Shown here: one piece after another, positions 2,265 to 61,203 of the stretch
Numbering within the stretch: the stretch's first letter is position 1
How the letters are laid out: each line of letters begins with the position of its first letter
Notes under the pieces: generated by a model
The model's database searches: none
The model's input: only the letters and a program-made list of their open reading frames with translations
What the model was told of the DNA's origin: nothing
Origin: a virus
Length of the DNA: 64,000 nucleotides
Reading direction: 5' to 3' (one strand)
Virus record (IMG/VR): IMGVR_UViG_3300009068_000001
Location: 35,806 to 99,805 of that record
Made by a program: the position numbers and the translations under genes

Positions 2265-2265
2265 G

Positions 2266-2484
2266 TTAGTCCTCTTCTTCGTACTCTGCTTTTGGTCGGT
2301 CATCCATCATTACGTAATCTTCCGGCATATCTGGCAAAGTTGGTGCGGTAGCTTTAGTACCACACTCTGCACACTCCATGTCTAAGAAGTACATTGAGAT
2401 TTCATAGTCCTGGAACATAGCCTTAACGTCCCAAAGTGTTGACCCGCAAGGACAAACGTGAGTTGGTTCTCCACGTACATCCAT
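2266..2484 (-). CDS. Small zinc-ribbon protein, function unknown
   Basis: 72 residues with two cysteine pairs (HVCPCGS and MECAECG) and a very acidic C-terminus ending in EEED. This looks like a small zinc ribbon. It lies between WhiB and primase in the replication operon and ends one base before the primase start. No specific family recognised. Confidence 0.6.
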   Translation of the reverse strand: MDVRGEPTHVCPCGSTLWDVKAMFQDYEISMYFLDMECAECGTKATAPTLPDMPEDYVMMDDRPKAEYEEED

Positions 2485-2504
2485 TGCATTTGTGTAATCA
2501 GGTT

Positions 2505-2756: not shown

Positions 2757-3966
2757 ACTCTTCAAACTTCCCTTCTTCCCAGTCCCATAGAAGATCGCTT
2801 GTTGCTGGGCCAGAGTTACGGCTTGCAACAATACGAAGTTCACGAGATGAATCATCTTCTTCATCTTGACGTTGCAAACCAAGAATCACATCTGAGTCTT
2901 GGAAGAACGAGGATGAATACCCAATCGCATCTGCAGATACCTGGCGCTTCTTCATCTTCCAAAGAAGAACCTGAGTGGACACCACAATTGGAATGTTAGC
3001 TTTTTGTGCCAGACGTTTTAGGTTACGTGTAATGCTTGTCAAAGCTTGTGGAGTATTAGATTCACCGCTAGCTTCATCAACCATAAGATAGACACCATCA
3101 ACAAAAACAATGTCAGGCTTAATCTTTTCAATTTTTGCTGCCAATCCTGTAACTGTCATAGCAGAGGTACTATCGGTTAGATAGAACTTCTGCATAGTCT
3201 CCATACGTTCTAGGGTTTCTTTGTAGCGACGCTCTTCATCTAGGTTTAGGTTTCCTCTAACCAGACGAGAGTGTGCAATCTTGGCACGCATTGCATCGTG
3301 ACGATGTTGCTGCTCAATGTTGCTCATCTCAAATGACTGGAACATAGGAACGTGACCATCTTCGTGCACGTTGACTGCAATCTGCATAGCAAGAACAGAC
3401 TTACCAGTCTTAGGTGGAGCAATGATTGTAATAAGCTGACCATTTTGCAAACCAGCAGTAGCCTCATCAATAGTTCTAAACCCTGTGCGGTAACCAAGTA
3501 GCGCACCGTCACGAGTCTTAATATCTAAGTACTCCTGGAAACGTTTGTCTGGATCCTTGGTAAGATCCACGTCGCTAGACTGTGCAGCACCTTCATCATA
3601 GATAGTTGCAACTCCAGAGCTCATCTCTGCAATAGCGCCGTCGTGATTACCAGAAGCAATCATCTCAGCAGCGGTCTGAACTACCTCAATAGTTTTTTGA
3701 CGTCTACGATACTCAACTAATTGATCTACAAGGTACTCTAAAGAATCATCTACAGCAAGTAAACGATAGGTGGGGAAGTTATCTTTAACAGTTACTGCAC
3801 TAGGGATCTCTTGGTAACGAGTCCAATGGGTGCGGATAAACTTCCAGACAGCACGGTTCTCATCTACAAAGAACCAACTATCTTCTACACCTTTTTCTAG
3901 GGCAGAGATAATTTCTCGAGTCCTTACGACCCGAGATATTAATCTCTCTTCATTATCTGCTGCCAC
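2722..3966 (-). CDS. DnaB-like replicative helicase
   Basis: 414 residues. A RecA-fold helicase core is visible: Walker A APPKTGKS at 183-190, Walker B DIVFVD ending at D290, a conserved VVSTQV sensor stretch and an SRNSGP segment near the C-terminus. Residues 1-110 form a helical N-terminal region as in DnaB, somewhat shorter than usual. It unwinds DNA at the fork and should be loaded by the AAA+ protein encoded at 4668-5345. It overlaps the neighbour upstream by 14 bases and WhiB downstream by 35 bases. Confidence 0.9.
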   Translation of the reverse strand: MAADNEERLISRVVRTREIISALEKGVEDSWFFVDENRAVWKFIRTHWTRYQEIPSAVTVKDNFPTYRLLAVDDSLEYLVDQLVEYRRRQKTIEVVQTAAEMIASGNHDGAIAEMSSGVATIYDEGAAQSSDVDLTKDPDKRFQEYLDIKTRDGALLGYRTGFRTIDEATAGLQNGQLITIIAPPKTGKSVLAMQIAVNVHEDGHVPMFQSFEMSNIEQQHRHDAMRAKIAHSRLVRGNLNLDEERRYKETLERMETMQKFYLTDSTSAMTVTGLAAKIEKIKPDIVFVDGVYLMVDEASGESNTPQALTSITRNLKRLAQKANIPIVVSTQVLLWKMKKRQVSADAIGYSSSFFQDSDVILGLQRQDEEDDSSRELRIVASRNSGPATSDLLWDWEEGKFEEYGTFGTPIKPF

Positions 3967-4369
3967 CGGCTGCCCCCATATCTAAATACCAATGCCCATA
4001 ACGTAGCCCACGTTCGGGTATATCAATCACATGCTTTAACTCTGGCCTGTATGGTAACTCTGCAACAAGATCTGCAGGAACCCTGTAAGCTTTTGAATAG
4101 TTAAAAGGATTAGTTCCAAGATTATCTAGATCTTCAAGAACCTCATCCATTTCTTTTTGAGAAAACCCGTACCCTACTAATTCTAACGTGTATGAATATG
4201 TTTCTGCAAATCGCCAGAATAAAGAGAGCGACTGTCTATTGTACGTAGTTTCTTCACCACTGACCGCCACACCAAATACTTTCTTAAAGGTTGGTCTACG
4301 ATCAAGGATACAATCCAAAGTAACCACAACCCGCATAGGAGTTTCATTTGATATATCGCCCCCGCGCAT
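3953..4369 (-). CDS. Conserved-looking protein of unknown function in replication operon
   Basis: 138 residues, not recognised. It begins with MRGGDISNETPMRVVVTLD and may start at the second Met. It contains mixed alpha/beta sequence without membrane segments or cysteine motifs, and ends in a glycine-rich AAGGSR. Position between the SWIM-finger gene and DnaB helicase suggests a replication accessory role, which is inference from context only. Confidence 0.6.
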   Translation of the reverse strand: MRGGDISNETPMRVVVTLDCILDRRPTFKKVFGVAVSGEETTYNRQSLSLFWRFAETYSYTLELVGYGFSQKEMDEVLEDLDNLGTNPFNYSKAYRVPADLVAELPYRPELKHVIDIPERGLRYGHWYLDMGAAGGSR

Positions 4370-4371
4370 TG

Positions 4372-4671
4372 TTATAGTACTTCGATCTTGCCGTACTTCA
4401 ATAGAAAGTCCCTAAACATAATGGGATCTAAACTTGCAATTGCAGCATCCTGTTGCGGAGCTTTGCTAGATATTTCTACAGGATATACTCCAAAGTTGTT
4501 TTTCATTTTCTCTGAAACATATCTAGTATGCTTGCACATGCTTCGGGTGTTAAACCCTTCACAATTACAGCGCAACTTTTTGTTATCTATATTGATCCAG
4601 ACTTCATGAGGTCCAGAGTCAGACAAAAATAACTGCGTAACTTGCCATGTACTCATAGTAGTTTCCTTCAT
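4372..4671 (-). CDS. SWIM-type zinc-finger protein
   Basis: 99 residues. The segment LRCNCEGFNTRSMCKHTRYV matches the CxCx(n)CxH signature of SWIM zinc fingers, which bind nucleic acids or proteins. The first ATG overlaps the helicase-loader stop as ATGA. A second ATG five codons later is preceded by AAGGAAA and may be the real start. It is co-transcribed with loader and helicase, so a DNA-binding accessory role at the fork is plausible but unproven. Confidence 0.68.
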   Translation of the reverse strand: MKETTMSTWQVTQLFLSDSGPHEVWINIDNKKLRCNCEGFNTRSMCKHTRYVSEKMKNNFGVYPVEISSKAPQQDAAIASLDPIMFRDFLLKYGKIEVL

Positions 4672-5345
4672 GCTCGTCTGTCCCCCTGTTGCGCTTCTAC
4701 TTCAATTGGTATGAACGCTTCCATAGCAAAGCTTCCCATAGGTGAACCATAAACACTTCCCCAATTCTCAAGAGGAACGTTTGTAGTTACAATCGTTGGA
4801 AGCCCTGCGTTAAATCTTGAACGTAATAATGCATCAAATGTATTCTCTGCCCAACCCGATGCCGTTCTATATTCCTTACCGATATCATCTAGAACAAAAA
4901 CTCTTACATTATTCATTCTATCCGAGTCCCCGTATATGCCGTCAAGTTGGATCTGAGTTGCCTCATCCTCATCAGAGAACTGAGACTTCTGAAGCCTCAA
5001 AAGCTTTGGATAATCCATGAACCCGCCTATGCGGTTTGGGTATCCTCCAGGTATACCTAAGACCTCTGCTGGAATACCCCTAATAAGGCTTTGCAGGGCC
5101 GTAGAAGCCATTGTAGTCTTTCCGTGACCTGGATTACCCACCAGCATGATTCCAAGCCCACAGGACGGAGATCCGGCCTTTTGAATGATCTCACCATTGA
5201 TAACTCTGGCTACCCATTTCTTGACTGATTCAAGAGCGGGTGTGGGATCTAAATCTGAAAACTCCTTGCCAATTGTTTTCATTGGAAGACCGGCGTGTAC
5301 GATTTGTTTGCGGATACTTGGGGCTTCTTTAGACAAGTCGTACAT
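4668..5345 (-). CDS. DnaC-like AAA+ helicase loader
   Basis: 225 residues. Walker A GNPGHGKT at 70-77, Walker B VFVLDDIG at 149-156, and a sensor I stretch TIVTTNVP. This is the DnaC/IstB-type AAA+ ATPase fold that loads DnaB-family helicases on single-stranded DNA. Its gene lies two genes upstream of the DnaB-like helicase and directly after a winged-helix protein, the standard loader/initiator arrangement of phage replication modules. Confidence 0.87.
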   Translation of the reverse strand: MYDLSKEAPSIRKQIVHAGLPMKTIGKEFSDLDPTPALESVKKWVARVINGEIIQKAGSPSCGLGIMLVGNPGHGKTTMASTALQSLIRGIPAEVLGIPGGYPNRIGGFMDYPKLLRLQKSQFSDEDEATQIQLDGIYGDSDRMNNVRVFVLDDIGKEYRTASGWAENTFDALLRSRFNAGLPTIVTTNVPLENWGSVYGSPMGSFAMEAFIPIEVEAQQGDRRA

Positions 5346-6563: not shown

Positions 6564-9500
6564 CTATTCTCTAAAGACAACTCTGTCAATGTCGAAGGCC
6601 TGGCCTGCAACATAAGTTGTGGGGCTAAAGGTAATGCTTACGATTGCGTAGGCCGCACCTGTAATAGAGCTGACTGGGAATGAGTTTCCAACGTATGCCC
6701 AACGCTCTGTATGAGTTATGGTTGCAGTTTGAGTTCTAGCTGCTGTGGTTATAACAGCGTTGTTTGCACCAGTAGAATCTTTTGAGTTGGTTGTCTTATT
6801 ATTAGTAAGGTTATCTTGATAGACAACAATTACGTTATCATTAAGGTCATAGTAATCAACCACCAATGAGTAACTACCAAGTGAGTCAGAGTTAACTGGT
6901 CTTACTGCAATTGAAGAATAGTACCCAGCATCTGGATTAAGATAGATCTTTCCAGTTTTAAGACCAAAAGGTTTTGCAGAACTTGAACCGGCTGTTGTAA
7001 CCCGGCAGTAACCTTGACCGTGAGTTACGTTATCTGCAAGCAAAGTACCAGCCGCAATCTTACGAGCCAAAGTTGAATTAACTGCAATCCAACCATTTAA
7101 ATTAGTTTCAAAAGAAGAAGCAGGTATTTTTGCCCCAGGAAGATCCTCATAAGTTGCAGAATCAAGGCCAGCATTAATACCCCAGTTTGCACCAATAGGC
7201 ATAAAGTTACCAAGAGTGTCATAAAGACGGCTAATTTTTGTATTGTAGTTTGAGAAGTAGCTACTCTTTCCTCCACCAACACTTTGCACTTTGCCTGCCC
7301 AAATAGTTTTACCTGAGGTTATTGGGTTAGATATAGCAAAGGTAGATCCTAAAGTAGTATCTAAGTATTGGTTTATTACTCTACCATATTCTGCATGTAC
7401 ACCATCAATATGGAAGTATGTAGATGTTGATCCAACAGTATTTGCAATAGATACTGTAAATGGAACCGTAGTCTGTCCAGCAGTTAGTTGAACTACTGTA
7501 TGAATTCTTTTCCAGTCAGCAGATTCAGCAGTATTAATAGTAAAGGTATTAGTTCCTAAAGTATACGTAGCCGCTGCTTTACGTACATACATAGATATAA
7601 TAAAATCTTCTCCACCTATTGCTGCAAATCCTAGGTGCGCTATCCCGCTTAAAGATCCAGTAGAGCTATAGGTTAACTTTCCAAAGTAAGTTCCATACTT
7701 TGGTCCCAAGCCTCCTGTATCTGAAGTAATACGGGTAAGTGTTCCACTACCCGCAGTCCAATCTGTAGTATTAAGTTCAAATCCAGAGTTACTGACGTAG
7801 TTATATACTTCTTTTATTTCCCACTTACAGTCAGCAGGAGCATAGTACTTTTGAGTTACTGGATTAGTAATAGCTTCTCCCCCATCACCAGAGAAGAAAG
7901 TATCTACAACAGAAGATTTTTCAAGAATACCGCCATCTAACCAATAGTTATCTCCAGCAACGTTATCTGTAGAATAAAAACTTACTTTAACTAACGGGTT
8001 TCCTGCGTCTTTAGAAAATGGTGGGGTAATACCAGCAACATATACTTGAGTTGGCACTGTAGTTGATAAAGTAAAAGGGTCGCTATCTACAAAATAAGTG
8101 TCGGTACTATAGTATTGTCCGTCAACATCTGAAAGAACTGCTGATTGCAATTCTTTGGTAGATTGATTAGAAAATTCTAATCTTACTTTCATAGTTCTAG
8201 CAGCAGAACCTAAAATATAGGCGCTAGCTATGATCTCTTGACCAGGTTCTATAGCAACCCAATCAGAGATAAATCCAGCAGTACCTGTTGCGGTAGACGT
8301 TAATTTTCCTACCTTAGTTCCATGAACAAGAGCTGCTGTAGTAACGCTGTCTTGGCTTAAAGAGCCATTTAAAGCTGTCCAAGAACTTAACCCGTATTCC
8401 ATTTCTGGGTTAAAGAAATAGTTTTCTTTTTCTCCACCTACATTTACATAAATTTTACGGGCGTCTTCATACATAAAACTATGCTCTGGCTCAGCAAATT
8501 GAAACATATCAAAATAAACTATATTTGAGGTTGCAGCTGAAGGGGTTACAGTTAAAGTAATTTTAGCAAACTTAGCAGTTAAAGGAGAAAGTTTTCCATT
8601 TCTTCCTGAATCTGAAAGACTTACAAATTCTGCAAAAGAGGTAGTTGTTGTAAGTACTGTTCCAGCAGAAGTAGACCCAAGAGAAATACCAAATTGATCG
8701 TACCAAGTAATAACGGCAGAAACATTTGTTGCTACTGCAGTACGTCTAGCGTATCCCGAAAACACATAGCGTGTCCCCCCTGAAATAGGAATACCATTAG
8801 TTTTAATATCCAGACCAGAAGCTGGCAAAGACATTGTTATTGCGGTTGTAGCCGCAGTTACTAACTTTCCTATTCCTTGAGATCTTACTGGGGATGTTAA
8901 ATCAGTAAAAGGAGTTGGAGCAGAAATGCCTGCCAAGCTATAAGTAGTAGAGGTTAAAGTACCACTAGAAACACCCCAACGTCCAATAGATTCTTCAAAA
9001 GAAGAATCATTATAATCTAACAACATGTTGTGACCAAGAGAATACTGAGCTTTCCAGTGAGTAAGCGCTGTTGTATAAATTGTTAAGCCCAAAGAAGTTC
9101 CTTTGTATGAGTTAACAATGTTGCCTGTAGCAGCAATAGAACGATTATAAACATCGCCCAAAGCAGCCTCATACTGAAGACCTAAACTTGTAGTCTTTGC
9201 ATTTAAAAGAGAACTAGGGGTGTAAAATGGGTCTAAAGAGTTTGCTAAAATGCTTCCCTGTACTCTCATATAATCGTACATAAAAGAAAAAACACCTAGA
9301 GTAGTTACTAAGCTATTAGTATCAGCGTTTGACAACCCTTCACCAACATTATCTACAGGGTTAAGCCAAGCTTTGGGTAACCAATTACTTATTTTAGCTA
9401 AAGAAGTTTTATTTCCAACTAATATGGCGTACGAAGTTCCGCAAAATTTCCATCCTGAACCATTAAATAACCAAATAGAGTAAGAAACTTCTAAGTCTTC

Positions 9501-9788
9501 TACATCAGTAATCGTGTCTGTAAAACTTGTTTTAATAGTTGAGTAGGTTCCACCATCAAGAATAATGCCGTTAGTGGGATCATCTAAACTTCCTGAATAA
9601 CTTTTAACTAAGACCCAGTGTGTAGGGCCTGGATCATTAGGGTCTGGGACGATAGGGTCCCAGACAACTTTAATTTTTTGATAGTCGTTTGAAGACGCAA
9701 AAATATTAGAGTTATAGTAAACACTTACTACAGAAGTTACGCCGTAACGTACTCCTGAACCGTATCGTCTAGTACCATACTTTGCCAT
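6564..9788 (-). CDS. Baseplate I-like protein fused to carbohydrate-binding-like repeats
   Basis: 1074 residues. Residues ~37-125 look like a fibronectin type III-type beta domain. Residues ~130-255 match the pattern of P2 gpI/tail protein I: LPKAW at 137-141, DPFYTPSSLL at 186-195, LGLQYEAALGD, and SYKGTSLGL at 227-235. The remaining ~800 residues contain at least four segments with the beginning SFEESIGRWG / NPEMEYGLSSW / NSGFELNTTDW / SSFETNLNGW, each followed by Ser/Thr-rich beta sequence. This is the look of CBM4/9-type jelly rolls. The gene directly follows baseplate J, the normal place for I. It likely caps the wedge and carries glycan-binding domains outward. Confidence 0.72.
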   Translation of the reverse strand: MAKYGTRRYGSGVRYGVTSVVSVYYNSNIFASSNDYQKIKVVWDPIVPDPNDPGPTHWVLVKSYSGSLDDPTNGIILDGGTYSTIKTSFTDTITDVEDLEVSYSIWLFNGSGWKFCGTSYAILVGNKTSLAKISNWLPKAWLNPVDNVGEGLSNADTNSLVTTLGVFSFMYDYMRVQGSILANSLDPFYTPSSLLNAKTTSLGLQYEAALGDVYNRSIAATGNIVNSYKGTSLGLTIYTTALTHWKAQYSLGHNMLLDYNDSSFEESIGRWGVSSGTLTSTTYSLAGISAPTPFTDLTSPVRSQGIGKLVTAATTAITMSLPASGLDIKTNGIPISGGTRYVFSGYARRTAVATNVSAVITWYDQFGISLGSTSAGTVLTTTTSFAEFVSLSDSGRNGKLSPLTAKFAKITLTVTPSAATSNIVYFDMFQFAEPEHSFMYEDARKIYVNVGGEKENYFFNPEMEYGLSSWTALNGSLSQDSVTTAALVHGTKVGKLTSTATGTAGFISDWVAIEPGQEIIASAYILGSAARTMKVRLEFSNQSTKELQSAVLSDVDGQYYSTDTYFVDSDPFTLSTTVPTQVYVAGITPPFSKDAGNPLVKVSFYSTDNVAGDNYWLDGGILEKSSVVDTFFSGDGGEAITNPVTQKYYAPADCKWEIKEVYNYVSNSGFELNTTDWTAGSGTLTRITSDTGGLGPKYGTYFGKLTYSSTGSLSGIAHLGFAAIGGEDFIISMYVRKAAATYTLGTNTFTINTAESADWKRIHTVVQLTAGQTTVPFTVSIANTVGSTSTYFHIDGVHAEYGRVINQYLDTTLGSTFAISNPITSGKTIWAGKVQSVGGGKSSYFSNYNTKISRLYDTLGNFMPIGANWGINAGLDSATYEDLPGAKIPASSFETNLNGWIAVNSTLARKIAAGTLLADNVTHGQGYCRVTTAGSSSAKPFGLKTGKIYLNPDAGYYSSIAVRPVNSDSLGSYSLVVDYYDLNDNVIVVYQDNLTNNKTTNSKDSTGANNAVITTAARTQTATITHTERWAYVGNSFPVSSITGAAYAIVSITFSPTTYVAGQAFDIDRVVFRE

Positions 9789-9791
9789 TTA

Positions 9792-11540
9792 TTAAATTCC
9801 ACCAGTAACTGTAGTCACTAAGCTAGTAGAAAGCAGGTATGGAATTTCATTTGCAGCAAGAGAAAGAGTTGCAAGAGATCCAGAACCATCTTTAGAAAGC
9901 TGGGTAACTGTAGCAGAGACTACGCCAGGAACATTTTGAATTGCGGCGGTAATAGTAGAGAGTGGAATTGTTCTTCCAAAGGTGTTTTTATCATAGTAGA
10001 ACAAGCCAGTTTCCCCAAGCATTGCTTGATAGATACCTAGTTTTACATCTGAATTTTTCCATGCCGAATCTGCTGTAACGGTTGCAGATAAGTATATTGG
10101 AACATAGGTTGGTGGAAGAACGGTTAGGGTTGTTCCTGCCATGATTTTATCGGCCATATAACTTTGAATAGCATAGGAAAGATTAGTCCATGCTGAAGTA
10201 GGTGTTAATGAGATAGCTAAACCACCAGATACATATGCTGTAGTAAGCGTGCTAGCTACGGTAAAAGTTACTGTTGAAGGTACTGCAGTAACTACAACGT
10301 TTTGTAAATTATACGCTACAGGATTAACACCAGAAATATTAAGAGTGTTTCCAATAGCAAATCCGTGGTCTACGTCAGTAGCAAAAGTTACTGCTGTACC
10401 TGTTGTGGCAATACCTACAATGTTTGCTTGAGGATATCCTGTGGCAGCTTGACCGTCGTTTAGTGGTTGAGCATAAAGGTTTACGTTAGTGTAAACACTT
10501 GATGCAGCGCTAGCTTTTCCTACGCCTTCTGCAAGAGTAGCTAGATAGGCAAAGTCGTCTACAGTTACCGCCCTACGTCTAGTTAAAACTGCAGCTTTAA
10601 TTTTGTTTTTAATATCTGTTAGTGTGTCTCCATCAGCACCGCCTGTTGCAGTGGCGTTATTGGAAACAGTAAAATAAGAGGTAATTTGTGGATCAACGTT
10701 TCCAGGAAAGAAAGTAAGTTCAGTAATAGAAAGGGACTTAATATTTCCAGCCGAACCAACGCTTACCTTATAAGTTGCACTAATAAGCTGGCCGCTTGGT
10801 GGAATAGCACCGTTGACATTATCACCAAATACAATATCAACTGTTCCATCTTCATTTGGTGACGTAGTAAATACTTTATCATTTGGTCCAGATTCAAATA
10901 AATTATCTACATAAGTCCAGTTACCAAAAGCAACACCTTGACCTACGTAAACTGTAATTGAATTGTTTACAAGACCTGGTTCAGGAACAGTAAACGTTTG
11001 ATTAGATCTACCATCTGACGATCCAATATTAGCTGGCAAAGCAATATTGTATGTGCTATCAATTAAGTCTGGCTTGTCAGTGTTTACTGTTTTTCCTTCT
11101 TGACACGGAAGAGTAATTGCTGTACCCGGAGCTACTGCTGTAGCTGAGGTAGTAGTTTCAAAATATACTTCAGAGTAAGCACCAAAAGAAAGGGGAGCCA
11201 TAACTTGAGTTCCAATTGGAATATCAATTGTGTTACTACTAATATTAGTGAAGGTAACATTTACTGTTGCTGGAGTTGGACCAGAGATTACATAGTCATA
11301 CAGCTTAGCAAAAGATAACAAAGTCTTACGTTGAATAGCAGTATCAATAGTAGTCTCATTTGCAATACGGTCTAGGTAGTGAGACATAATGTCTCCCATA
11401 TAAGCAAATGTTTCAACCAGTACGTGGCCTAAATCAGAGTAGTCAGTAGGGTCCCAAGTAGTATTAGTACGTTCTTTGATTAGATCAATAAGGTCTGCTT
11501 TTAATGCAGCAAAATCTCTAGATGTATAGTCAATTTGCAT
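9792..11540 (-). CDS. Baseplate J-like wedge protein
   Basis: 582 residues. The N-terminus (YTSRDFAALKADLIDLI, LVETFAYMGDIMSHYLDRIA, KTLLSFAKLYDY) is the conserved start of P2 gpJ/T4 gp6-type baseplate proteins. GGADGDTLTDIKNKI and RRRAVTVDDFAYLA are also typical. A foreign-looking beta segment sits at residues ~369-438 (VDHGFAIGNTLNISGVN), the repeated E1_FCCH-like domain found in other structural genes here. The protein connects hub and sheath-triggering wedge. It lies between gp25 and the I-like protein. Confidence 0.9.
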   Translation of the reverse strand: MQIDYTSRDFAALKADLIDLIKERTNTTWDPTDYSDLGHVLVETFAYMGDIMSHYLDRIANETTIDTAIQRKTLLSFAKLYDYVISGPTPATVNVTFTNISSNTIDIPIGTQVMAPLSFGAYSEVYFETTTSATAVAPGTAITLPCQEGKTVNTDKPDLIDSTYNIALPANIGSSDGRSNQTFTVPEPGLVNNSITVYVGQGVAFGNWTYVDNLFESGPNDKVFTTSPNEDGTVDIVFGDNVNGAIPPSGQLISATYKVSVGSAGNIKSLSITELTFFPGNVDPQITSYFTVSNNATATGGADGDTLTDIKNKIKAAVLTRRRAVTVDDFAYLATLAEGVGKASAASSVYTNVNLYAQPLNDGQAATGYPQANIVGIATTGTAVTFATDVDHGFAIGNTLNISGVNPVAYNLQNVVVTAVPSTVTFTVASTLTTAYVSGGLAISLTPTSAWTNLSYAIQSYMADKIMAGTTLTVLPPTYVPIYLSATVTADSAWKNSDVKLGIYQAMLGETGLFYYDKNTFGRTIPLSTITAAIQNVPGVVSATVTQLSKDGSGSLATLSLAANEIPYLLSTSLVTTVTGGI

Positions 11541-11544
11541 TATC

Positions 11545-11940
11545 TTAATACCCCGCTGTCGTGGTTCCGTTGTAGTTAATGGTGCCTGTGTTAATACTTA
11601 GAGAAGTAAGTGTATCATCTGGTAGCTTTAGAGACACGATTACGTTTTCTGTACCGTCATTGTTTTCCCCAGAAAACTCCACAGAGGTTACGCTAACCTG
11701 TGGGATCCACTTTGCAACGGCTTCTGAGATAGCGATTGGAATAGCAATTCTTGCGTCGCTGTCGTTTTCAAAAAGGCTTCTACTCCAGTCAACCCCATAC
11801 TTTGGTTCCATAGGGCGTTGACCAACATAGTAAGACAAAAGGGTTAGAACTTTATCTAAGTAAATTTTAGTAGGTGATTCTGTGTATTGAGGCACTCCAG
11901 AAGGGCTTATAGTGTAAGGAAAGCTGAGAGCTTTGCTCAT
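11545..11940 (-). CDS. gp25-like baseplate wedge protein
   Basis: 131 residues from the ATG at 11940, which overlaps the preceding stop as ATGA; an upstream in-frame ATG at 11958 is less likely. It resembles the T4 gp25/P2 gpW family: a short all-purpose wedge protein with YYVGQRPMEPKYGVDW and EAVAKWIPQVSVTSVEF. The family helps join baseplate to sheath. Order spike, gp25, J, I is conserved with other contractile systems. Confidence 0.87.
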   Translation of the reverse strand: MSKALSFPYTISPSGVPQYTESPTKIYLDKVLTLLSYYVGQRPMEPKYGVDWSRSLFENDSDARIAIPIAISEAVAKWIPQVSVTSVEFSGENNDGTENVIVSLKLPDDTLTSLSINTGTINYNGTTTAGY

Positions 11941-24799: not shown

Positions 24800-26167
24800 C
24801 TAACCAGATATTTTAAAATTGTCTACTGTAGATCCCTGGCCAAATGGGCTAGAGGTCTTAATAATACCATAATTGTTTGCTTTTGCAGGCGAGGTTGCAG
24901 TATGTGTACCAGAGGTTAATAGTCCCGTAAAGTCAGAATTTGAGTAGGCCTGATAACTTAGTACATTTCCTTGAGTATTTAAACGAAGAGCCCCAACTGA
25001 GCCACTTACGCTTATATCTCCAGTAAGGTTTGTGATAGTTCCACCCACTGAACGAATTAGTTTTATATAATAGTTATTGGTAATTGACCCGCAAGTTTGG
25101 CAACCACCGCCGTATTGATCACAATTAGGGTAAGTTCCACCACCGTAGCAAGTAGACCCGGTATAGTAATATGCAACTCCGCAGTCAGGATTTGCACAAC
25201 TATAGCAAGTAGTTGTTCCGGCTGTTGTAACTGTACAAACACCTGTTGATTGGTTAGCTGTACCGCCGCTTGGGCAACTATAGTAACCAGTACCAAACGA
25301 TGTAACGTAGCAACGACCGCCACTTTCAGTACCACTACTACAAGTACAAGTAGTAACTCCACCTGTAGGTATATAGCAGCTGTAGTTACCTGGGTGACCA
25401 CTTTCTCCCTCAGGACATTCGTAACAGTATGATCCAGTGCCACCTGAGTAACAATCAGATGTGCTATAACAATTATAGTTGGTTGGGTCATTAACTTGAG
25501 TTTGACTACATCTACGACCATAAATAACAGCAGAGCCTATATATTTCCAACCACTTACACTTGTTGTACAGTTAGCAGCACCAACATCAGTTACAGTTGT
25601 TCCACCTGGAACATAAGTTCCTTGATAGGTACTAGTACCTCCGCCAGAAGTAGTAGAGCCGCAATAATAACAACTAGTGCAGGTATTATAAACTGGTACT
25701 GGATAAGTATCGCAGTGGCCATTACAGTAACAGTTACATGAATAGGTAGTATTTACTTGGGTTTGAAAAGAAACTAAAGCATACCAGTTATTAGCATCGA
25801 CTACCCAAGCAGCAACACCGGTACCATTACTAACACCGGCTCCTACAGTAACATCGCTAACACCGTAAGCTACGGTAGCAATAGCGTTTGAACTTGCGGC
25901 AGTATCTGATTGAGCAGCAGATCCATTGGCGTACCAAGTACCTGTAACGTTAGTCCAGGTCTCTCCGCTATCTGCTGTACCTAAAACACCTGAAACTGAG
26001 CGGTTAAAAGAGTCTGTAATTGGACCAAGAAACCAACGTACCCAAGTAGTAGCGTCTGTTTTTAACCAAGCGCTCTTAGCAAGGCCCCAAGAATTGGAGC
26101 TTGTTTTTACTTGAACGTCAGTTACGCTACCCCAGTTGCTGGCATCTAATTTTATTTTGGCAGGCAT
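24800..26167 (-). CDS. Jelly-roll virion protein interrupted by a cysteine-rich domain
   Basis: 455 residues. Residues ~50-137 (DSFNRSVSGVLGTADSGETW, NGTGVAAWVVDANNWYALV) and 366-455 (YYIKLIRSVGG to TVDNFKISG) together read as one concanavalin/LamG-like jelly roll. Between them, residues 144-359 hold about 26 cysteines with Gly, Tyr, Thr and Ser (CNCYCNGHCD, CTSCYYC, CPEGESG). The insertion sits between two neighbouring strands, as a loop insertion would. Gene lies in the fibre locus; a receptor-binding or decoration role is inferred. Confidence 0.6.
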   Translation of the reverse strand: MPAKIKLDASNWGSVTDVQVKTSSNSWGLAKSAWLKTDATTWVRWFLGPITDSFNRSVSGVLGTADSGETWTNVTGTWYANGSAAQSDTAASSNAIATVAYGVSDVTVGAGVSNGTGVAAWVVDANNWYALVSFQTQVNTTYSCNCYCNGHCDTYPVPVYNTCTSCYYCGSTTSGGGTSTYQGTYVPGGTTVTDVGAANCTTSVSGWKYIGSAVIYGRRCSQTQVNDPTNYNCYSTSDCYSGGTGSYCYECPEGESGHPGNYSCYIPTGGVTTCTCSSGTESGGRCYVTSFGTGYYSCPSGGTANQSTGVCTVTTAGTTTCYSCANPDCGVAYYYTGSTCYGGGTYPNCDQYGGGCQTCGSITNNYYIKLIRSVGGTITNLTGDISVSGSVGALRLNTQGNVLSYQAYSNSDFTGLLTSGTHTATSPAKANNYGIIKTSSPFGQGSTVDNFKISG

Positions 26168-41829: not shown

Positions 41830-42906
41830 TTAGTTGGTTTCTGCGATAACTACAGATTGATCAGTGATTAGACCAAGACCGTAGATTGCGTACCATGCAA
41901 GAGCGTGCTCACGACCGAAGTCAAGAATACCGCCGTCACGAAGTTCCACTGGAAGTGAAATAGCGTGACCGAATGCGTTGTCTCCAATAAAGATTGCTGA
42001 ATAGCGGTCTGAACCACCATTACCTGTCTTTGTTGCTGGAGTTGTGTATCCGCCACCAGTTGGGTATGAGATAGAAGCTGGATCAACAGCTGTATCTGTG
42101 GTGTATGAAGTACCAGCACCACCAACGACCTTCTGGATCTGAGTTGTTTCGATGAATACTGTGTCATATAGACGACCGATTTCACCTAGCATGAAGTTAC
42201 CTGGAGCTGCGTACTTTGTTACTTCGATGAACTCTGGGTTGTCACGAAGCTTACGGCTCTGGTGTGGGTGCACGAATGCAACATATGTCTCACCAAGGCG
42301 AGGGATGTTCTTTGTAGCAAGTGTCTCTACTGCATCCTTGACTGTCTTTGGTGTTAGGTTGAATGCGCCGGTCATTGAAGCACGTGTTGTGCCCTTTGTA
42401 CCATCTGCGTACCATGCGTTAATAGCTGTCTGGTTTGAACGATCTTCACCGTAAATGACTGAAGATGCAGCCATAAGTGTGTCACGAGCCTGGCCATCAA
42501 GGTAGAGAGCCATGTTACGTCCAAGAAGACGTGATGCTGATGCCATAACGTCATCGAATGATGCGTTAAGTAGGAGCTCTGATACTGCGATTGCGTATCC
42601 GTGCTCAGCAACAGTGATTGAGAATTGCTGTGCTGTCAACGCGTTTGTTGACATACGTACGCCTTCAACCAATGGAGCTGCGAAGCCTAGGTTGTTGTAG
42701 CGCATGAAGTTGATCTGGAGACCAGGTGCGACGCCTAGTTCTGTCTTCTTAACAGCGAACTGTTCGAAGCGAAGGATAGGCATTGACTGGAAAAGAATTT
42801 CCTTAGACCAGATGGTCTGAATTGCTTGTGTAAGCTGGCTATTGGAGCCAGAGTACGCTGTAGGTGCTGCGGCTAAATTGCCGGTACCTGTTACGGCTGA
42901 TGCCAT
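41830..42906 (-). CDS. Major capsid protein, N4-gp56 type
   Basis: 358 residues. FQSMPILRFEQFAVKKTELG, QINFMRYNNLGFAAPLVEGV, AEHGYAIAVSELLLNASFDD, YVAFVHPHQSRKLRDNPEF and GEIGRLYDTVFIETTQIQKV are hallmarks of the N4-gp56-like HK97-fold capsid family. It forms the icosahedral shell. Scaffold and portal genes lie directly upstream. Codon choice looks more optimal (many CTG, CGT, GTT) than in neighbours, as expected for a highly made protein. Confidence 0.94.
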   Translation of the reverse strand: MASAVTGTGNLAAAPTAYSGSNSQLTQAIQTIWSKEILFQSMPILRFEQFAVKKTELGVAPGLQINFMRYNNLGFAAPLVEGVRMSTNALTAQQFSITVAEHGYAIAVSELLLNASFDDVMASASRLLGRNMALYLDGQARDTLMAASSVIYGEDRSNQTAINAWYADGTKGTTRASMTGAFNLTPKTVKDAVETLATKNIPRLGETYVAFVHPHQSRKLRDNPEFIEVTKYAAPGNFMLGEIGRLYDTVFIETTQIQKVVGGAGTSYTTDTAVDPASISYPTGGGYTTPATKTGNGGSDRYSAIFIGDNAFGHAISLPVELRDGGILDFGREHALAWYAIYGLGLITDQSVVIAETN

Positions 42907-46427: not shown

Positions 46428-48005
46428 TTAGAAGAAAGGACTTGCTGAAACTTCAATTGTTGGCATAACTAGTTCTTGAGTAAGGGAACAAGCCAACGCC
46501 AACGAATCTACAAAGTCATCGTGGGCATGGACTTCATCTGGTGCAGCTACCAAAAAGTTAGGTCCTTTGTACTGAACTTCGGCATCCGTCATCTGTTGGT
46601 AGAACTTTTTCCAAATACGTAGGCGACGGGTCTTGGCATGGGAAGGCCAAGAAACCATCTGACGTTGAATTAACGCTTGAAGGTGCTTCCAACGTTTTGA
46701 TTGCTCTGTAGGGCTAGAGGTAACAGGAATTACTTCAGCCCGTGGCATTAAAATCTTTAATCTTCCAGCCACTGCATCACCAACACCATTAGCGTCGATT
46801 CCTATTGCAAGCACATCATAAGATGATAAGAACTGTTGGATCTGGAAATATTGTTCTTCCCAGTCATCCCCCTGCATTTCAAGCCAATTTAATACTCTAT
46901 GATCATAGTAACCGTACTCATCAGGACGATCCCAGTCTACCCACACAACTGTTACAACCGTTGAGTCCATTTTGCGTGCCGGGTCAATTCCTACGACTAC
47001 CGGTGACCTATGCCAGCTTTTAACAATTTCCTGTGATGTATCACCAAGGTCGTCCATGATTGAGGATGTGACGAACATTCCTCTCTCCAACAACCATTTG
47101 CAGTTGTAGGAAAGCTGGAACTCATCAGAGTCCTCACTGATGCGAAGCATTTCTTTCTTAATAAACTTTTCATAGTTAGGGTTTACTTTCGCTACATCTT
47201 TCCAATCCCATTGGAAATGATTCTGTTTTGCGTTGCGGCTAGTCTGTCTACGTCGGTTAAATTGAATGGCTTTATAAAAGTTATTCTTATGGGTTGTTGG
47301 GGTTCCTGTTTTAACCATAGTAGCGTTGTAGTACGCACCCATAGGAGAAATAGACTTAGCTACTACGAAATCGTCAGCTTCTTGGCATTCGTCAATAATA
47401 ATAAGATGGAAAGACTTAGATTCAATCTTAGCTCTTGGGTTAGCTGTCATCATCATAAGGCTACTGCCTGAGTTCTTAAGACGGATGTTCCTTACTACAC
47501 CTGGAGTTTTAGCAACCATATCGTCAATCTCAGGATCACCAAGAACATCTAAGGCTGCTTCACTTGTTAGGCGAGATACTGTACGCCCGTATAGGGTTTC
47601 TACCTGTGATTGAACAGGTGCAAACATACCGACCATGATGCCATCCCCAAACTTACCAAGAAGCTCTGGGTACATCTTAGCTAGGCGTGGAAGGATAACC
47701 ATAAGGGTAGCCACTGTGTTAGCAATAGTTTCAGACTTACCACTCTGACGAGAAGCAAGTGCGGTGATTTCTTCACCATCATTGATAATAACTGACTCTA
47801 TCAATCTACGAGCTAGAGGAGCCTGATATTGGTGAAGTTCATGACCTACCAAAACTTTCATGAAATCCATGATCTTCTCTACCAAAACTTTTACAAACTC
47901 TTTAGAAAGCTCATCTAAGCCGTCGTCTTCAACTTCTTCTGGCAGAATATTACCAAACTCGTCAAAGTCTTCCGGCTCTAGTTCATCAAACTCAACGGTA
48001 CTCAC
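46428..48005 (-). CDS. Terminase large subunit
   Basis: 525 residues. ATPase: SRQSGKS at 85-91, Walker B and catalytic Glu in LIIIDECQE at 201-209, and a coupling motif TGTP at 233-236. RNase H-like nuclease: D341 in VVGIDPAR, D404 in IGIDANGVGD, and D496/D497/D500 in HDDFVDSLALA. The N-terminus is acidic. It cuts concatemers and pumps DNA into the procapsid through the portal. The gene overlaps the small upstream gene by four bases. Confidence 0.95.
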   Translation of the reverse strand: MSTVEFDELEPEDFDEFGNILPEEVEDDGLDELSKEFVKVLVEKIMDFMKVLVGHELHQYQAPLARRLIESVIINDGEEITALASRQSGKSETIANTVATLMVILPRLAKMYPELLGKFGDGIMVGMFAPVQSQVETLYGRTVSRLTSEAALDVLGDPEIDDMVAKTPGVVRNIRLKNSGSSLMMMTANPRAKIESKSFHLIIIDECQEADDFVVAKSISPMGAYYNATMVKTGTPTTHKNNFYKAIQFNRRRQTSRNAKQNHFQWDWKDVAKVNPNYEKFIKKEMLRISEDSDEFQLSYNCKWLLERGMFVTSSIMDDLGDTSQEIVKSWHRSPVVVGIDPARKMDSTVVTVVWVDWDRPDEYGYYDHRVLNWLEMQGDDWEEQYFQIQQFLSSYDVLAIGIDANGVGDAVAGRLKILMPRAEVIPVTSSPTEQSKRWKHLQALIQRQMVSWPSHAKTRRLRIWKKFYQQMTDAEVQYKGPNFLVAAPDEVHAHDDFVDSLALACSLTQELVMPTIEVSASPFF

Positions 48006-54775: not shown

Positions 54776-54799
54776 AGCCGGGAGCGTGAACTCCCGGCT
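54776..54799 (-). terminator. Rho-independent terminator
   Basis: AGCCGGGAG / CTCCCGGCT, loop 6, with T-rich flanks on both sides; ends the leftward gene at 54818. Confidence 0.9.
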
Positions 54800-54817: not shown

Positions 54818-55780
54818 TTATGCAAACGGTGTAATTGTGATTGTAGCTGTTGTTGCGACTGAAGCTGCATTTGCAGCAACTGACTGAGTCTTGATTGTTC
54901 CAGAAACACCTGTAAGTCCAGCAACAGAAAGACCTGTTGTTGAAAGAGTACCTGATGTTGTGGTTGTGAAAGAAACAGTGTTTGTAGCAACTGCTGTAAC
55001 TGTCCATGTACCGTTTAGTGCGGTATCTGGAGATACAAGTGATGCAACAGTAATCTTTGTTCCAACTGGATACTTTGCACCAGCACCTGAAGAGGTGATT
55101 GTTGCTGCTGTACCTGTGCGTGAAACTGCTGTGATAGTTGAAGCTGCGTTTGTAGCTGCAGATGCAGTTGTAATATTAGCTGCTTCGTAACCAGCATCCT
55201 TAAGAGCATCAAGGGCAAGAGCTGTTGTCTTACCAACAACTGAAGGTACGTTGATGTAAGCAATTCCTGCGCCATCAGCTGCTGTAATAGCAGTTGTTGA
55301 CTGAACCTTACCAAGTTGACCGGTGATAGTTCCAGCGTTTGCTGCGTTAGTAACTTGGAATGAAGTTTTCTGTGGGTTTACAACTGTTGCTGATGAAAGG
55401 TTGTAAGCTGAAGCTGTAAGACCAGTAATGTTTACAGTCTCTCCACCAGTGAAGTAATTCTGACATGTGTATGTAACTGTTGTTCCATCACCTGATACTG
55501 CTGAAACCATGTAGTTAGGTTCAGCTGCAATAAATGAAGGATAGTTAGCCCACTCTGCTTCTGCGATAGCGTGGCTATCGTATGAAGCGTTTAGACGAGC
55601 ACTTGGATAGACTGAGTATCCGGTCCAGCTTTTGTTTTCAGATGCATTAGATGCAACTACTTCAACTGCTGTTCCGTCTGTGCGATCATCGTTTGGTTGC
55701 ATAGGGAAGTTTCCCCATACGAAATCTACTGCAACGTTGCCTGAGGTATCAAGCAAATTGCCATTGTTATTTACGGCCAT
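54818..55780 (-). CDS. Virion-like protein with two FCCH-like domains and a PASTA domain
   Basis: 320 residues. Residues 1-87 are a polar structural start (VDFVWGNFPMQPNDDRTDGT). FCCH-like domain at ~88-157 (FTGGETVNITGLTASAYNLS). PASTA pattern at ~173-205 (INVPSVVGKTTALALDALKD AGY). A second FCCH-like domain follows at ~210-292 (YPVGTKITVASLVSPDTALN). PASTA domains contact peptidoglycan in actinobacterial kinases and penicillin-binding proteins. The gene is a transcription unit closed by a terminator; codon use suggests high expression. Capsid or tail decoration is inferred. Confidence 0.62.
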   Translation of the reverse strand: MAVNNNGNLLDTSGNVAVDFVWGNFPMQPNDDRTDGTAVEVVASNASENKSWTGYSVYPSARLNASYDSHAIAEAEWANYPSFIAAEPNYMVSAVSGDGTTVTYTCQNYFTGGETVNITGLTASAYNLSSATVVNPQKTSFQVTNAANAGTITGQLGKVQSTTAITAADGAGIAYINVPSVVGKTTALALDALKDAGYEAANITTASAATNAASTITAVSRTGTAATITSSGAGAKYPVGTKITVASLVSPDTALNGTWTVTAVATNTVSFTTTTSGTLSTTGLSVAGLTGVSGTIKTQSVAANAASVATTATITITPFA

Positions 55781-55852: not shown

Positions 55853-56422
55853 TTAAGACTTTTGTATGTGTGTAATGATCTTCCCACCGGAATATATATC
55901 ATGCTTACAGGCAATCTCTACTGCTTTGCGAAGAACTTTTTCGGCAGCCTCTGGGGTTTTGGCCTTATGGTACTCTAAAGCCTCAAGAGCTCCAAGAGCT
56001 ACATCTCCGCCTGAACCACCGTAGTAGACATTGCGGGCTTCACGATCCCAAGAGTAGTCACTAAAGATTGGGTATAGGACGCCACGAATAGAAACGATAA
56101 GGTTAGAGTCATGAGCTGCTGCATCGCCATCATCTTTGGCATCATAACCCGCTTTGATAAAAGCTTCACGCATAGATGGGATAAATCTTTTTGTTACAAA
56201 TAAATCTAAATTTTCAGAGGCACGAGGTTTTGGTGGCTTCCAACCAAATTGAGTAATGTTTCCACCGCGGGATGCACCAGAGACAGCAATCAGTACACCA
56301 TTGTTATCAACAACTTTAGGTGTTGCTAAATCCATAAAACGACCATCTTCATCAGATGCACGACTATCACATCCAATAACAGACCAGCCGTCACCCTGTA
56401 TAGCTACTAACGTTGTCATCAT
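55853..56422 (-). CDS. Proteasome beta/HslV-like Ntn hydrolase
   Basis: 189 residues. Begins MMTTLVAIQGDGWSVIGCDS; if T3 is exposed as Thr1, D19 falls at the catalytic position 17 and K36 next to position 33. AVSGASRGGN and VYYGGSGGDVALGALEALEY match the glycine turn and the GSG...A..AL helix of proteasome beta subunits. It would need removal of one or two Met residues to expose Thr. The fold cleaves peptides in barrel-shaped complexes. Whether it works alone or with host proteasome parts is unknown. Expressed from a strong GAGAGGG site. Confidence 0.78.
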   Translation of the reverse strand: MMTTLVAIQGDGWSVIGCDSRASDEDGRFMDLATPKVVDNNGVLIAVSGASRGGNITQFGWKPPKPRASENLDLFVTKRFIPSMREAFIKAGYDAKDDGDAAAHDSNLIVSIRGVLYPIFSDYSWDREARNVYYGGSGGDVALGALEALEYHKAKTPEAAEKVLRKAVEIACKHDIYSGGKIITHIQKS

Positions 56423-56446
56423 ACCCTCTCGTAGAGACTTAGTGTA

Positions 56447-56872
56447 TTACAAGTATTCTTGAAAACCCATTTCAAATGTCTCAGAACGAGTTCGCGGCAA
56501 TTGTCCAAAAGATGTTGTTAACCAAGGCCAACCATTTAAGGCTTGCGTAACAAATTCATTTGTAGATGAGCCGGACTTCAGTTCTTGCCACATCTCTGGG
56601 ATAACCATATCATACTGGATCCAGGTGTAACTCGGTCTACCACCGACGCCGGGGTCTGTCATTACAATGACTAGAGTCTCTGTAGCGGGGTTGTAGCAGC
56701 ACTTCTGGGCTCTAGGCCTTAAAGGGTCAGATTGAGGGGCGTAAATCTCTTCATAGCCTGGGCCACATAATCTACTGGCCTCACGGTCATGTCTTAGGGC
56801 AGCTGCAATGGCAGCATAGTTATCGGGATCAACGGAAGGTTTAAACCTTTTAGCCCGATATCTATCTGACAT
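56447..56872 (-). CDS. KTSC-like domain protein 1
   Basis: 141 residues. ETLVIVMTDPGVGGRPSYTW, then IQYDMVIPEMWQELKSGSST follows the KTSC pattern (strand pair, Y/V-P-x-x-W-x-x-L, S-x-G). It shares PEMWQELK with the protein at 58032 (LEMWEELK), so they are paralogues. Often seen in actinophages; function unknown. Confidence 0.58.
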   Translation of the reverse strand: MSDRYRAKRFKPSVDPDNYAAIAAALRHDREASRLCGPGYEEIYAPQSDPLRPRAQKCCYNPATETLVIVMTDPGVGGRPSYTWIQYDMVIPEMWQELKSGSSTNEFVTQALNGWPWLTTSFGQLPRTRSETFEMGFQEYL

Positions 56873-56952
56873 TATTTATCCCAATCTTTATTTTGTATGT
56901 ATGAGACAAACCATCCAATAGCAAATGCTACTAACATCCAAAGAGGGTTCAT
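56872..56952 (-). CDS. 26-aa single-pass membrane peptide
   Basis: MNPLWMLVAFAIGWFVSYIQ then NKDWDK: one transmembrane helix. ATGA overlap with the FmdB-like gene upstream and TAATG overlap with the next gene support translation. Function unknown. Confidence 0.52.
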   Translation of the reverse strand: MNPLWMLVAFAIGWFVSYIQNKDWDK

Positions 56953-57110
56953 GAACCTCCCCATCCTCCACCACGAAATATAGCAGGGGTAGCAGACCAT
57001 AAACGACTCATACTCTCTTGACAACAAGTAGGTTCGTAATCTTCACCGAACTCGCGGGTAATCTCTTGTGTCATTCCACATTTATTACACTTGTAGTCAT
57101 ATTTAGGCAT
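56949..57110 (-). CDS. FmdB-like zinc ribbon protein
   Basis: 53 residues from the ATG at 57110. MPKYDYKCNKCGMTQEITRE, then CCQES and LWSATPAIFRGGGWGGS, the FmdB family pattern including the Gly-rich end. Zinc ribbon; role in phages unknown. Confidence 0.78.
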   Translation of the reverse strand: MPKYDYKCNKCGMTQEITREFGEDYEPTCCQESMSRLWSATPAIFRGGGWGGS

Positions 57111-57217
57111 TAGTCTGAACACTCCGGGCATTTAGTAGTCGGGCTATTAGTTCCAACAGGAACTTGGTACATTACTCCACATCTATAGCAGAGCACATCT
57201 AATTTTAAATCTTCCAT
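57110..57217 (-). CDS. 35-aa zinc-ribbon micro-protein
   Basis: MEDLKLDVLCYRCGVMYQVP then VGTNSPTTKCPECSD: two CxxC knuckles. TAATG overlap to the FmdB-like gene. Function unknown. Confidence 0.6.
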   Translation of the reverse strand: MEDLKLDVLCYRCGVMYQVPVGTNSPTTKCPECSD

Positions 57218-57263
57218 AATTTCCAAACTTTTCGGCGGGGAGTTACTGGTGTAACTACACGAG

Positions 57264-57335
57264 CTGACCTTCCTGGGATCGAACCAGGGACCTAGGCATT
57301 AACAGTGCCCCGCTCTGCCGCTGAGCTAAAGATCA
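57264..57335 (-). tRNA. tRNA-Asn (anticodon GTT)
   Basis: 72 nt. Acceptor TGATCTT pairs with AAGGTCA (one T-G pair); D arm GCTC AGCGGC AGAGC is canonical; anticodon loop CTGTTAA gives GTT, closed by GGGCA/TGCCT; T arm CCTGG TTCGATC CCAGG. CCA is not encoded. It lies just downstream of the hsp20 gene behind a TATAAT-containing repeat that may act as promoter. Confidence 0.92.
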
Positions 57336-57455: not shown

Positions 57456-57956
57456 TTATTTGATCTTAATGATCTTTGGTTGTAACTCCTCTGGGAGTTC
57501 CTGCTGCAGAGTGATTCGTAACAATCCATCCTTAAGTTCTGCACCCTTGACAACTACATACTCCGCTAATACGAAGTCTTGCTTGAAGTCTCTGGTTGCA
57601 ATTCCCTTATGGATAGGTTCAGTCTCAGATGCCTCTAATTCGCCTTGTACGGTCAGCTGAAGCTCTTTGACACTGATTGTGATATCTTCCTTAGCAAAGC
57701 CTGCTACAGCGAGTTCTAAGACATATGTGTCCTTATCGCGGTAGATGTTATAAGGTGGGTAACCAGCAGTTTTAGATTGCGCTGCTACTTGCTTGAATAC
57801 ATCAAGCATAGGATCAAAGCCAATAGCCCAGCGATTAAACTGAGGAAAGAGGGTTTGAATAGTTACTTGCTGTGGAAGTGTTACTTGTTTCTTTGTGTGT
57901 TCCCATGTATCTGTGTAGCGATCATGTGGGGAACCCATTGGGTAGCCTGAAGCCAT
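57456..57956 (-). CDS. Small heat-shock protein Hsp20
   Basis: 166 residues. Alpha-crystallin domain at ~68-160: PYNIYRDKDTYVLELAVAGF, KEDITISVKELQLTVQGELE, TRDFKQDFVLAEYVVVKGAE, LKDGLLRITL; C-terminal IIKIK resembles the I-x-I anchor. Preceded by a GDP-rich N-terminal arm with FNRWAIGFDPMLDVF. It holds unfolding proteins; aquatic myoviruses often carry it, perhaps for capsid or tail folding. Strong AAGGAGATATATT leader. Confidence 0.92.
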   Translation of the reverse strand: MASGYPMGSPHDRYTDTWEHTKKQVTLPQQVTIQTLFPQFNRWAIGFDPMLDVFKQVAAQSKTAGYPPYNIYRDKDTYVLELAVAGFAKEDITISVKELQLTVQGELEASETEPIHKGIATRDFKQDFVLAEYVVVKGAELKDGLLRITLQQELPEELQPKIIKIK

Positions 57957-58031: not shown

Positions 58032-58526
58032 CTAATTAGGGACTTTTAAACCCTGTAAATATTCTTCTGTAAGGTTATCTATCTCACCTGGTCTTGTACG
58101 GTAATAATTATGGTTTTCCACACCAGAGAACTTTAGCCACTCTCCAGTAGAGTGATAGCCTTTTAGCTCTTCCCACATCTCTAGGTCTACATCAGCATAG
58201 CGCACCCAAGGCTCAATGTCACCCGCCCTGATTTGACTTTTTGGACTAGATTTTTTTCTAGGTTCATATGTAAATACAACAAGTAACATTTGCATACCAC
58301 GATGGTAGCCAATCCACTTAGCTCTCCGCCTTCTACCAGTTGATGGAGCAGGCACTTGTTCCCACCCGTCACCAAACATCTCAGAGGTGTAACCCTCCGA
58401 CGGATCTTCCTTCTTCTCCCCCTGGAATGCAGGATCAGCAAAGCCATACATGGCTGCAGCAAGGTTAAGTTTCTTATTGGCCTCATCAGGACCTATGTTA
58501 TGTCCTATGAACTCTTCTCTAGGCAC
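58032..58526 (-). CDS. KTSC-like domain protein 2
   Basis: 164 residues from a GTG at 58526. KWIGYHRGMQMLLVVFTYEP, DIEPWVRYADVDLEMWEELK, GYHSTGEWLKF: same core as the protein at 56447 with a longer N-terminus (NKKLNLAAAMYGFADPAF). Function unknown. Confidence 0.56.
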   Translation of the reverse strand: MPREEFIGHNIGPDEANKKLNLAAAMYGFADPAFQGEKKEDPSEGYTSEMFGDGWEQVPAPSTGRRRRAKWIGYHRGMQMLLVVFTYEPRKKSSPKSQIRAGDIEPWVRYADVDLEMWEELKGYHSTGEWLKFSGVENHNYYRTRPGEIDNLTEEYLQGLKVPN

Positions 58527-60954: not shown

Positions 60955-61203
60955 ATGTTTGAAATGAATGGTGAACAGTTGTGTGCTCATACTGACAGGG
61001 AGATATTCTTCCCTGTTGGTAAGGCTGATCCAAATAAGAAGCTAGCCTTTGCTATGTGCAAGGCTTGCCCATTGCTTTCAGCGTGTCGTACATACGCTGA
61101 GACCACACCGGGGCTGTATGGCATCTGGGGTGGCAAGGAATACTATGGCATAGGCTTTGTATCCGCTATGTCACATCAAGCAGAAAGGAAACTAAGTGCC
61201 TAA
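60955..61203 (+). CDS. WhiB-family regulator, second copy
   Basis: 82 residues: LCAHTDREIFFPVGKADPNK, MCKACPLLSACRTYAETTPG, YGIWGGKEYYGIGF, basic end ERKLSA. The four cysteines (C, CxxC, C) are present and the GIWGGK turn is closer to host WhiB than the copy at 2505. It is expressed in the rightward, probably early, operon and likely acts on host sigma factor. Confidence 0.92.
   Translation: MFEMNGEQLCAHTDREIFFPVGKADPNKKLAFAMCKACPLLSACRTYAETTPGLYGIWGGKEYYGIGFVSAMSHQAERKLSA

Follow-up and report, generated by a model that had tools for sequence, protein, structure and literature searches.

Introduction

Phage-encoded homologues of the proteasome were described in 2021 by Fuchs, Alva and Lupas (PMC8665760), and they are also covered by PHROG 1040. 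That study reported PPH, of ~140 aa and lacking H2, together with AAH; it did not find actinophage AAH, and it also saw the CPH and DAH subfamilies in phages. As far as we found, phage relatives of the proteasome have so far been known as sequences without a function. Among the cellular members of the superfamily, BPH has an acidic pore loop, has lost the HslU interface, carries no propeptide and has no known unfoldase (PMC5777263). Its Thr1 reacts with epoxomicin, yet BPH is inert on standard substrates in vitro (PMC5777263), so the activity of a BPH-like protein is not to be assumed.

Here we analyse a proteasome-like gene in a 64,000-nucleotide stretch of viral DNA, hereafter the window (positions 35806-99805 of the 99,805-base virus record G000). 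Like the homologues of the 2021 study and of PHROG 1040, its product is a phage-encoded, propeptide-free Ntn hydrolase with Thr1, Asp17 and Lys33; it differs from the PPH and AAH described there in having 188 aa with H2 and in falling outside AAH. Within the literature searched, a phage-only clade in actinophages, near-universal in two phage lineages, is new, as are its allele exchange and acidic pore loop. Two lineages of freshwater actinophages, both abundant, thus carry the Ntn gene almost universally. The gap left in 2021 is thereby partly filled: actinophage-borne homologues exist and are common, though they are not AAH.

Results

The Ntn hydrolase open reading frame occupies positions 55853-56422 on the minus strand (189 codons and a stop), while the plus strand over the same interval is broken by stops throughout. 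An RBS-like GAGAGGG (56424-56430, minus) is followed by a single T and then by the first ATG (56420-56422), leaving 1 nt to this ATG and 4 nt to the second. All full-length viral homologues in a first scan have ATG or TTG immediately before Thr1, and the residue upstream differs. Given this spacing and the start codon before Thr1 in the homologues, translation very probably begins at the second ATG, and the first was ruled out as a start on the same two grounds. The preferred CDS (55853..56419, minus) would then encode 188 aa (MTTL...) in which Met1 directly precedes the catalytic Thr1, so that removal of Met alone would expose the nucleophile, with no propeptide. The window protein is kept by selection, since dN/dS against eight relatives is 0.04-0.14, which indicates strong purifying selection. 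A promoter scan returned matches no more numerous than in shuffles.

An initial annotation, made without database searches, had proposed an Ntn hydrolase related to HslV and proteasome beta subunits, and had pointed to Thr3, Asp19 and Lys36 of the open reading frame and to glycine motifs. These residues are present and correspond to proteasome Thr1 (codon 56414..56416; residue 2 of the 188 aa), Asp17 (56366..56368; residue 18) and Lys33 (56315..56317; residue 35), all on the minus strand. The glycine motifs are those of the Gly47 equivalent at the oxyanion hole (56276..56278, minus; residue 48, in VSGAS) and of GSGG around the Ser129 equivalent (56012..56014, minus; residue 136). The protein matches PF00227 (Pfam Proteasome) at 1.1e-6, with 28.9 bits against a curated cut-off of 22.4 (a six-frame search of the whole record gave a lower 18.3 bits), and PHROG 1040, 'peptidase HslV family', at 2.6e-24. 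Searched by profile, the PDB sequences yielded HslV at 1e-13 and BPH at 3e-13. An AlphaFold2 model of the monomer, built with 30 viral rows (pLDDT 89, pTM 0.85), predicts an alpha-beta-beta-alpha Ntn fold with group-I elements, in which H1-H4 are present (H2 at residues 71-89) and the C-terminal H5 is absent. A Foldseek comparison of this model with the PDB ranked BPH first (6.7e-11, TM 0.69-0.73), followed by HslV and 20S beta subunits. Judged by sequence and predicted structure together, the gene is a proteasome-superfamily Ntn hydrolase, with agreement far beyond chance.

Thr1, Asp17, Lys33 and Gly47 are invariant across the 30 aligned viral rows and again in the window clade and the DSL-like clades. 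The same four are invariant in 66 rows that include 65 alleles from the E7 slot described below, at identities down to 27%. Ser129 is mostly conserved, and the equivalents of Asp166 and Ser169 are variable, with N/C in one subclade. A check for a different fold, or for homologues that had lost Thr, Asp or Lys, was thus run and neither was seen. PPH (~140 aa, H2 missing) was rejected as an identity, the window protein having 188 aa with H2.

The branch of the superfamily was examined in trees covering HslV, PrcB, BPH and AAH. HslV and PrcB sequences came from whole genomes, and BPH from PDB alignments (partial) and one genome; the AAH set consisted of cellular loci (rhizobia, Azospirillum, Streptomyces, Dactylosporangium and others) picked by phage context and by taxonomic range, the latter following PMC8665760. 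In AU tests, joining the window clade to PrcB (p=0.023), to HslV (p=0.0075) or, on just three BPH rows of which two are partial, to BPH (p=0.031) was rejected. In the careful tree AAH formed one clade at 99/99 with the window protein outside it, which argues against AAH membership; a position as sister of AAH was not rejected (p=0.07), and since the deep branches are long the placement relative to AAH is unsure. On the strength of the AU rejections and of the AAH clade that leaves it out, we read the window protein from its sequence as belonging to a phage clade and not as a recent acquisition from a host proteasome. The kinship with HslV and proteasome beta subunits that the initial annotation had proposed is supported by the profile and fold matches; the phylogeny that it had called for rejects a joint clade with PrcB or with HslV. 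We place the protein in group I, on the HslV/BPH-like side of the superfamily, and as virus-specific; this forms part of an explanation that, taken whole, has about an even chance of being right.

Several of the closer identities could be set aside on further grounds. Capture of a host PrcB, or a special likeness to it, is disfavoured by the AU test, by the lack of a match to TIGR03690, by the absence of a propeptide and by the pore loop, which has 19 aa and a charge of -4 against 7 aa and 0 in PrcB. HslV shares the fold and catalytic residues with the window protein, but its pore is basic where that of the window protein is acidic, and it has HslU as its partner; against the NCBIfam equivalog models it reached only 21.7 and 20.4 bits, far short of their cut-offs of 137 and 157.75, and no HslU was found. 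AAH likewise belongs to group I, has a comparable length and start and is also phage-borne; at the position of Gly47 in the window clade, however, it carries Ser/Thr (in one case Gln). When the A3 profile was run against 397 Actinomycetota genomes, its sole match lay in the genome that served as centre, which bears AAH, and this match is probably that AAH; a weak A3 search of genome contigs, by two narrow peptide patterns, found no relative.

The predicted pore loop lies between H2 and S7 at residues ~88-107 (IKAGYDAKDDGDAAAHDSNL; 56099..56158, minus), where the model has its lowest confidence; it is acidic and aligns with the pore loop of BPH. Within the window clade it averages 19.1 aa with a net charge of -4.0, compared with 22 aa and -4.3 in BPH (three sequences, two of them partial), 15 aa and +2.0 in HslV and 16.6 aa and -0.5 in AAH; E7-slot alleles average a charge of -2.8. 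BPH (Thiobacillus 5OVS, Cupriavidus 5OVU) thus resembles the window protein in its long acidic pore loop, in having no propeptide and in the absence of a dedicated unfoldase in searches. It is also the best PDB fold match, yet it is cellular and only 17-21% identical. The likeness of the loops could be convergent, because a joint clade with BPH is rejected. By analogy with BPH, these features suggest that the phage protein may be an ATP-independent, self-compartmentalising barrel with restricted substrates.

The initial annotation had stated that no ATPase partner is encoded nearby. This held for the HslU, ClpX and Mpa types: a search for an HslU/ClpX/Mpa-type unfoldase for the window protein detected none, and in 24 carrier records no AAA_2 match of the HslU/ClpX type exceeded the cut-off. 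Elsewhere in G000, however, there are genes for an AAA_5 ATPase resembling CobS/MoxR (G000 1997-3406) and for a VWA protein (G000 3416-5269, L272). AAA_5 occurs in 18 of the 24 carriers, including all those tested of ~100 kb or more (~100-136 kb), so that an ATPase may act as a partner. It is absent from the ~40 kb records L147, L162, L085 and L093 and from the 71-76 kb records L014 and L018. Its C-terminus (...SAQSTTV) has no HbYX docking tail. The absence from several small or partial carriers, the missing HbYX and the fact that the pair is of a type common in large phages make AAA_5 and VWA a weak candidate for a dedicated partner. The VWA protein also carries an HExxH motif (HELAHHLY) and is a possible fusion of a zincin with VWA. 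Two Vibrio phages (L075, L080) encode a polypeptide deformylase one or two genes from the Ntn gene, which would help to expose Thr1 after fMet.

In the lineage of the window the gene order is conserved, running from Hsp20 through a zinc ribbon, a 141-aa protein, Ntn and a 320-aa protein to HNH and TerL. Directly upstream, across a gap of 24 bp, lies the 141-aa conserved neighbour (56447..56872, minus), which matched nothing in Pfam or PHROG, followed by an FmdB-like zinc-ribbon protein that is also a conserved neighbour (56949..57131, minus) and by an Hsp20/alpha-crystallin small heat-shock protein (57456..57956, minus; PHROG 432 at 3.6e-32, PF00011 at 7.2e-15). Hsp20 stands at the head of the late-gene run and is a neighbour in most window-type contigs, though not in all (for example not in L069). 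The 320-aa conserved neighbour, with a weak PASTA match, lies directly downstream (54818..55780, minus), and the terminase large subunit TerL (46428..48005, minus) is encoded ~8 kb downstream on the strand of the Ntn gene. The sample for slot conservation was anchored on TerL and hence not chosen by the presence of Ntn. Every informative contig of the lineage (16 of 16) had Ntn; 14 extend as far as the upstream neighbours, and no contig had these neighbours without it.

Some smaller features of this region are recorded here. The proteins encoded at 56447-56872 and 58032-58526, around the block of Hsp20, zinc ribbon and Ntn, have the look of diverged paralogues with a shared ...MW.ELK...ST... 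stretch, and tblastn lands both on the same place in several contigs. Between the minus-strand late genes, at 54776-54799, lies a perfect 9-bp hairpin, AGCCGGGAG-N6-CTCCCGGCT; its tail on the plus strand is rich in T.

In the window lineage, the Ntn alleles are between about 42 and 96% identical to the best query. In L090 and L091 the gene has been swapped in place: Ntn is 44-45% identical to that of the window, against 70-89% for several of the neighbours. Conversely, Ntn is 82-87% identical in L009, L014, L105 and L107-L110, although hardly any other gene nearby is shared by these contigs; in L014 it lies near a queuine tRNA-ribosyltransferase. In L085 and L093 a more distant allele stands alone in antisense orientation, and relatives are encoded in at least 593 IMG/VR stretches. 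Ntn behaves as cargo, its alleles passing between unrelated phages. At G000 8335-11888 (L272), a B12-dependent ribonucleotide reductase stands beside a protein resembling the queuine tRNA-ribosyltransferase of L014, and in L014-type phages Ntn occupies the corresponding cluster.

A second lineage is that of phage E7, which with F5 (OX376640/1) is a cultured phage of 'Ca. Planktophila' (PMC10202952). Of the 76 assessable loci in E7-like phages, 69 have Ntn ~14 nt behind the portal (complete in 65, cut by a contig end in four), and the remaining seven have the portal-proximal slot without it. Five or more distinct Ntn alleles occur in this post-portal slot (L276:7500-8036, L357-L436), which is empty in those seven. 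Where two loci have portals at least 85% identical (1805 pairs), their Ntn alleles are less than 40% identical in 632 cases. Between the portal and capsid genes of a 39 kb phage (L276:8727-14021) lies a 1764-aa protein to which no family could be assigned; its counterpart in L147 has 1708 aa. The Ntn proteins of E7/F5, DSL-LC01, Arthrobacter phages Pitbull/Hum25 and Microbacterium phage Pumpernickel are 25-38% identical to the window protein, and those tested fall in the same PHROG. Their genomic positions differ from that of the window gene, and all are phages of Actinobacteria or predicted to be so, the host of DSL-LC01 being a prediction only (PMC10611076).

The host of the window virus is likely to be an actinobacterium, and probably a freshwater one, because the window encodes a WhiB transcription factor (60955..61203, plus; PF02467 at 1.2e-11), an indicator of Actinobacteria, and has kinship to actinophages and to the cultured 'Ca. 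Planktophila' phages. The actinobacterial setting assumed at the outset is thus borne out as likely. A single tRNA-Asn(gtt) lies inside the Hsp20-Ntn block at 57263-57335; at the DNA level it is matched best mainly by tRNA-Asn genes of cyanophages, a general tRNA similarity on which a host assignment was rejected.

Discussion

We propose that the window gene encodes a virus-specific Thr1 protease that assembles itself into an ATP-independent barrel and is carried as a cargo gene acting on selected proteins, a proposal that we regard as evenly balanced between right and wrong. Under this model the initiator Met would be removed to expose Thr1, no propeptide being present, and the subunit would form, by self-assembly, a small barrel of two rings with the long acidic pore loop lining the entrance, as in bacterial BPH. 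Such a barrel would need no HslU/Mpa-type unfoldase to cleave its targets, which would be selected proteins or unfolded ones, perhaps passed to it by a chaperone. The gene, encoded among late genes in the window lineage and swapped between unrelated phages as cargo, would most likely act during infection by removing or processing particular proteins of the host (or of the phage). For the window protein we infer protease activity, late expression, assembly into a ring and independence of ATP. Among the roles first suggested, that of a self-contained protease is the reading best supported by analogy, given the BPH-like acidic loop, the lack of a propeptide and the failure to find an HslU/ClpX/Mpa-type unfoldase, and a cargo protease directed at host or selected phage proteins fits best.

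A role in head assembly or virion maturation, also raised in the initial annotation, appears rather unlikely. Here Ntn would cleave scaffold, capsid or internal proteins where a classical prohead protease is absent, and in E7 and its relatives it does lie directly after the portal within a TerL-portal-scaffold-MCP run, which is the slot of the canonical protease. The window gene is co-directional with the late genes, a search of G000, E7 and the 40 kb phages for S78, S77 and ClpP-type proteases found none, and the two lineages have in common a capsid of PHROG 1357 (major capsid protein of the window at 41830..42906, minus; the family is shared with Planktophila phage E7). However, Ntn occurs together with an S78 prohead protease in Vibrio phages V6Aob, JSF10 and 2.058.O, with S77 and ClpP in XacN1 and with a weaker S78 match in DSL-LC01, while L061 and L029, whose Ntn is 68-81% identical to that of the window and lies at a different genomic position, have sub-threshold S78 matches. 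The E7 slot can be empty, and its alleles change behind closely similar portals; since a protease of maturation would be expected to vary together with the capsid that it cleaves, this change counts against maturation. By our own reading, neither capsid has an obvious N-terminal delta domain. Because relatives occur alongside canonical prohead proteases, a general prohead role for the Ntn family is unlikely, and what survives of the suggestion is a possible role in the window lineage. The identity of a prohead protease of class S78, S77 or S14 was rejected, as the fold differs and Ntn coexists with S78/S77 in other carriers. A more particular version, in which freshwater actinophages recruited a proteasome-fold protease for head maturation or as a virion-associated enzyme, replacing the classical one after the portal and swapping its alleles, we consider unlikely.

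A protease for quality control and recycling would work with the adjacent Hsp20 and with host chaperones to degrade aggregated or damaged proteins late in infection. Hsp20 adjoins the Ntn block in most of the window lineage, and proteasome activity on disordered proteins without an unfoldase is discussed in PMC8665760. The association is nevertheless confined: Hsp20 is not beside Ntn in other phage backgrounds, nor in every window-type contig (L069), and we find this explanation improbable.

Remodelling of host proteolysis, in which the phage subunit would associate with, or poison, PrcAB of the host or the ATPase of PrcAB, is very unlikely. WhiB and the cultured relatives make actinobacterial hosts probable, many Actinobacteria possess a proteasome, and Asp17, Lys33, Ser129 and Asp166 are proteasome-like. 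Specific kinship to PrcB is nonetheless rejected by the AU test, the protein has no propeptide and a different pore loop, and related families are also found in phages of Vibrio, Xanthomonas and Geobacillus.

A non-proteolytic Ntn enzyme, such as an amidase or a protein ligase of the connectase kind, which belongs to the same superfamily (PMC8665760), is extremely unlikely, as the model has no S3/S4 helical insertion and retains all of H1-H4, unlike connectase.

A cultured host exists for the Ntn gene family, since E7 and F5 infect 'Ca. Planktophila'; the role of a viral proteasome homologue is therefore directly testable through the relative that these phages carry. Elsewhere in the late region of the window, among tail-fibre-like genes, positions 24800-26167 encode a cysteine-rich protein of unusual composition with repeated CxxC/CYxC motifs.
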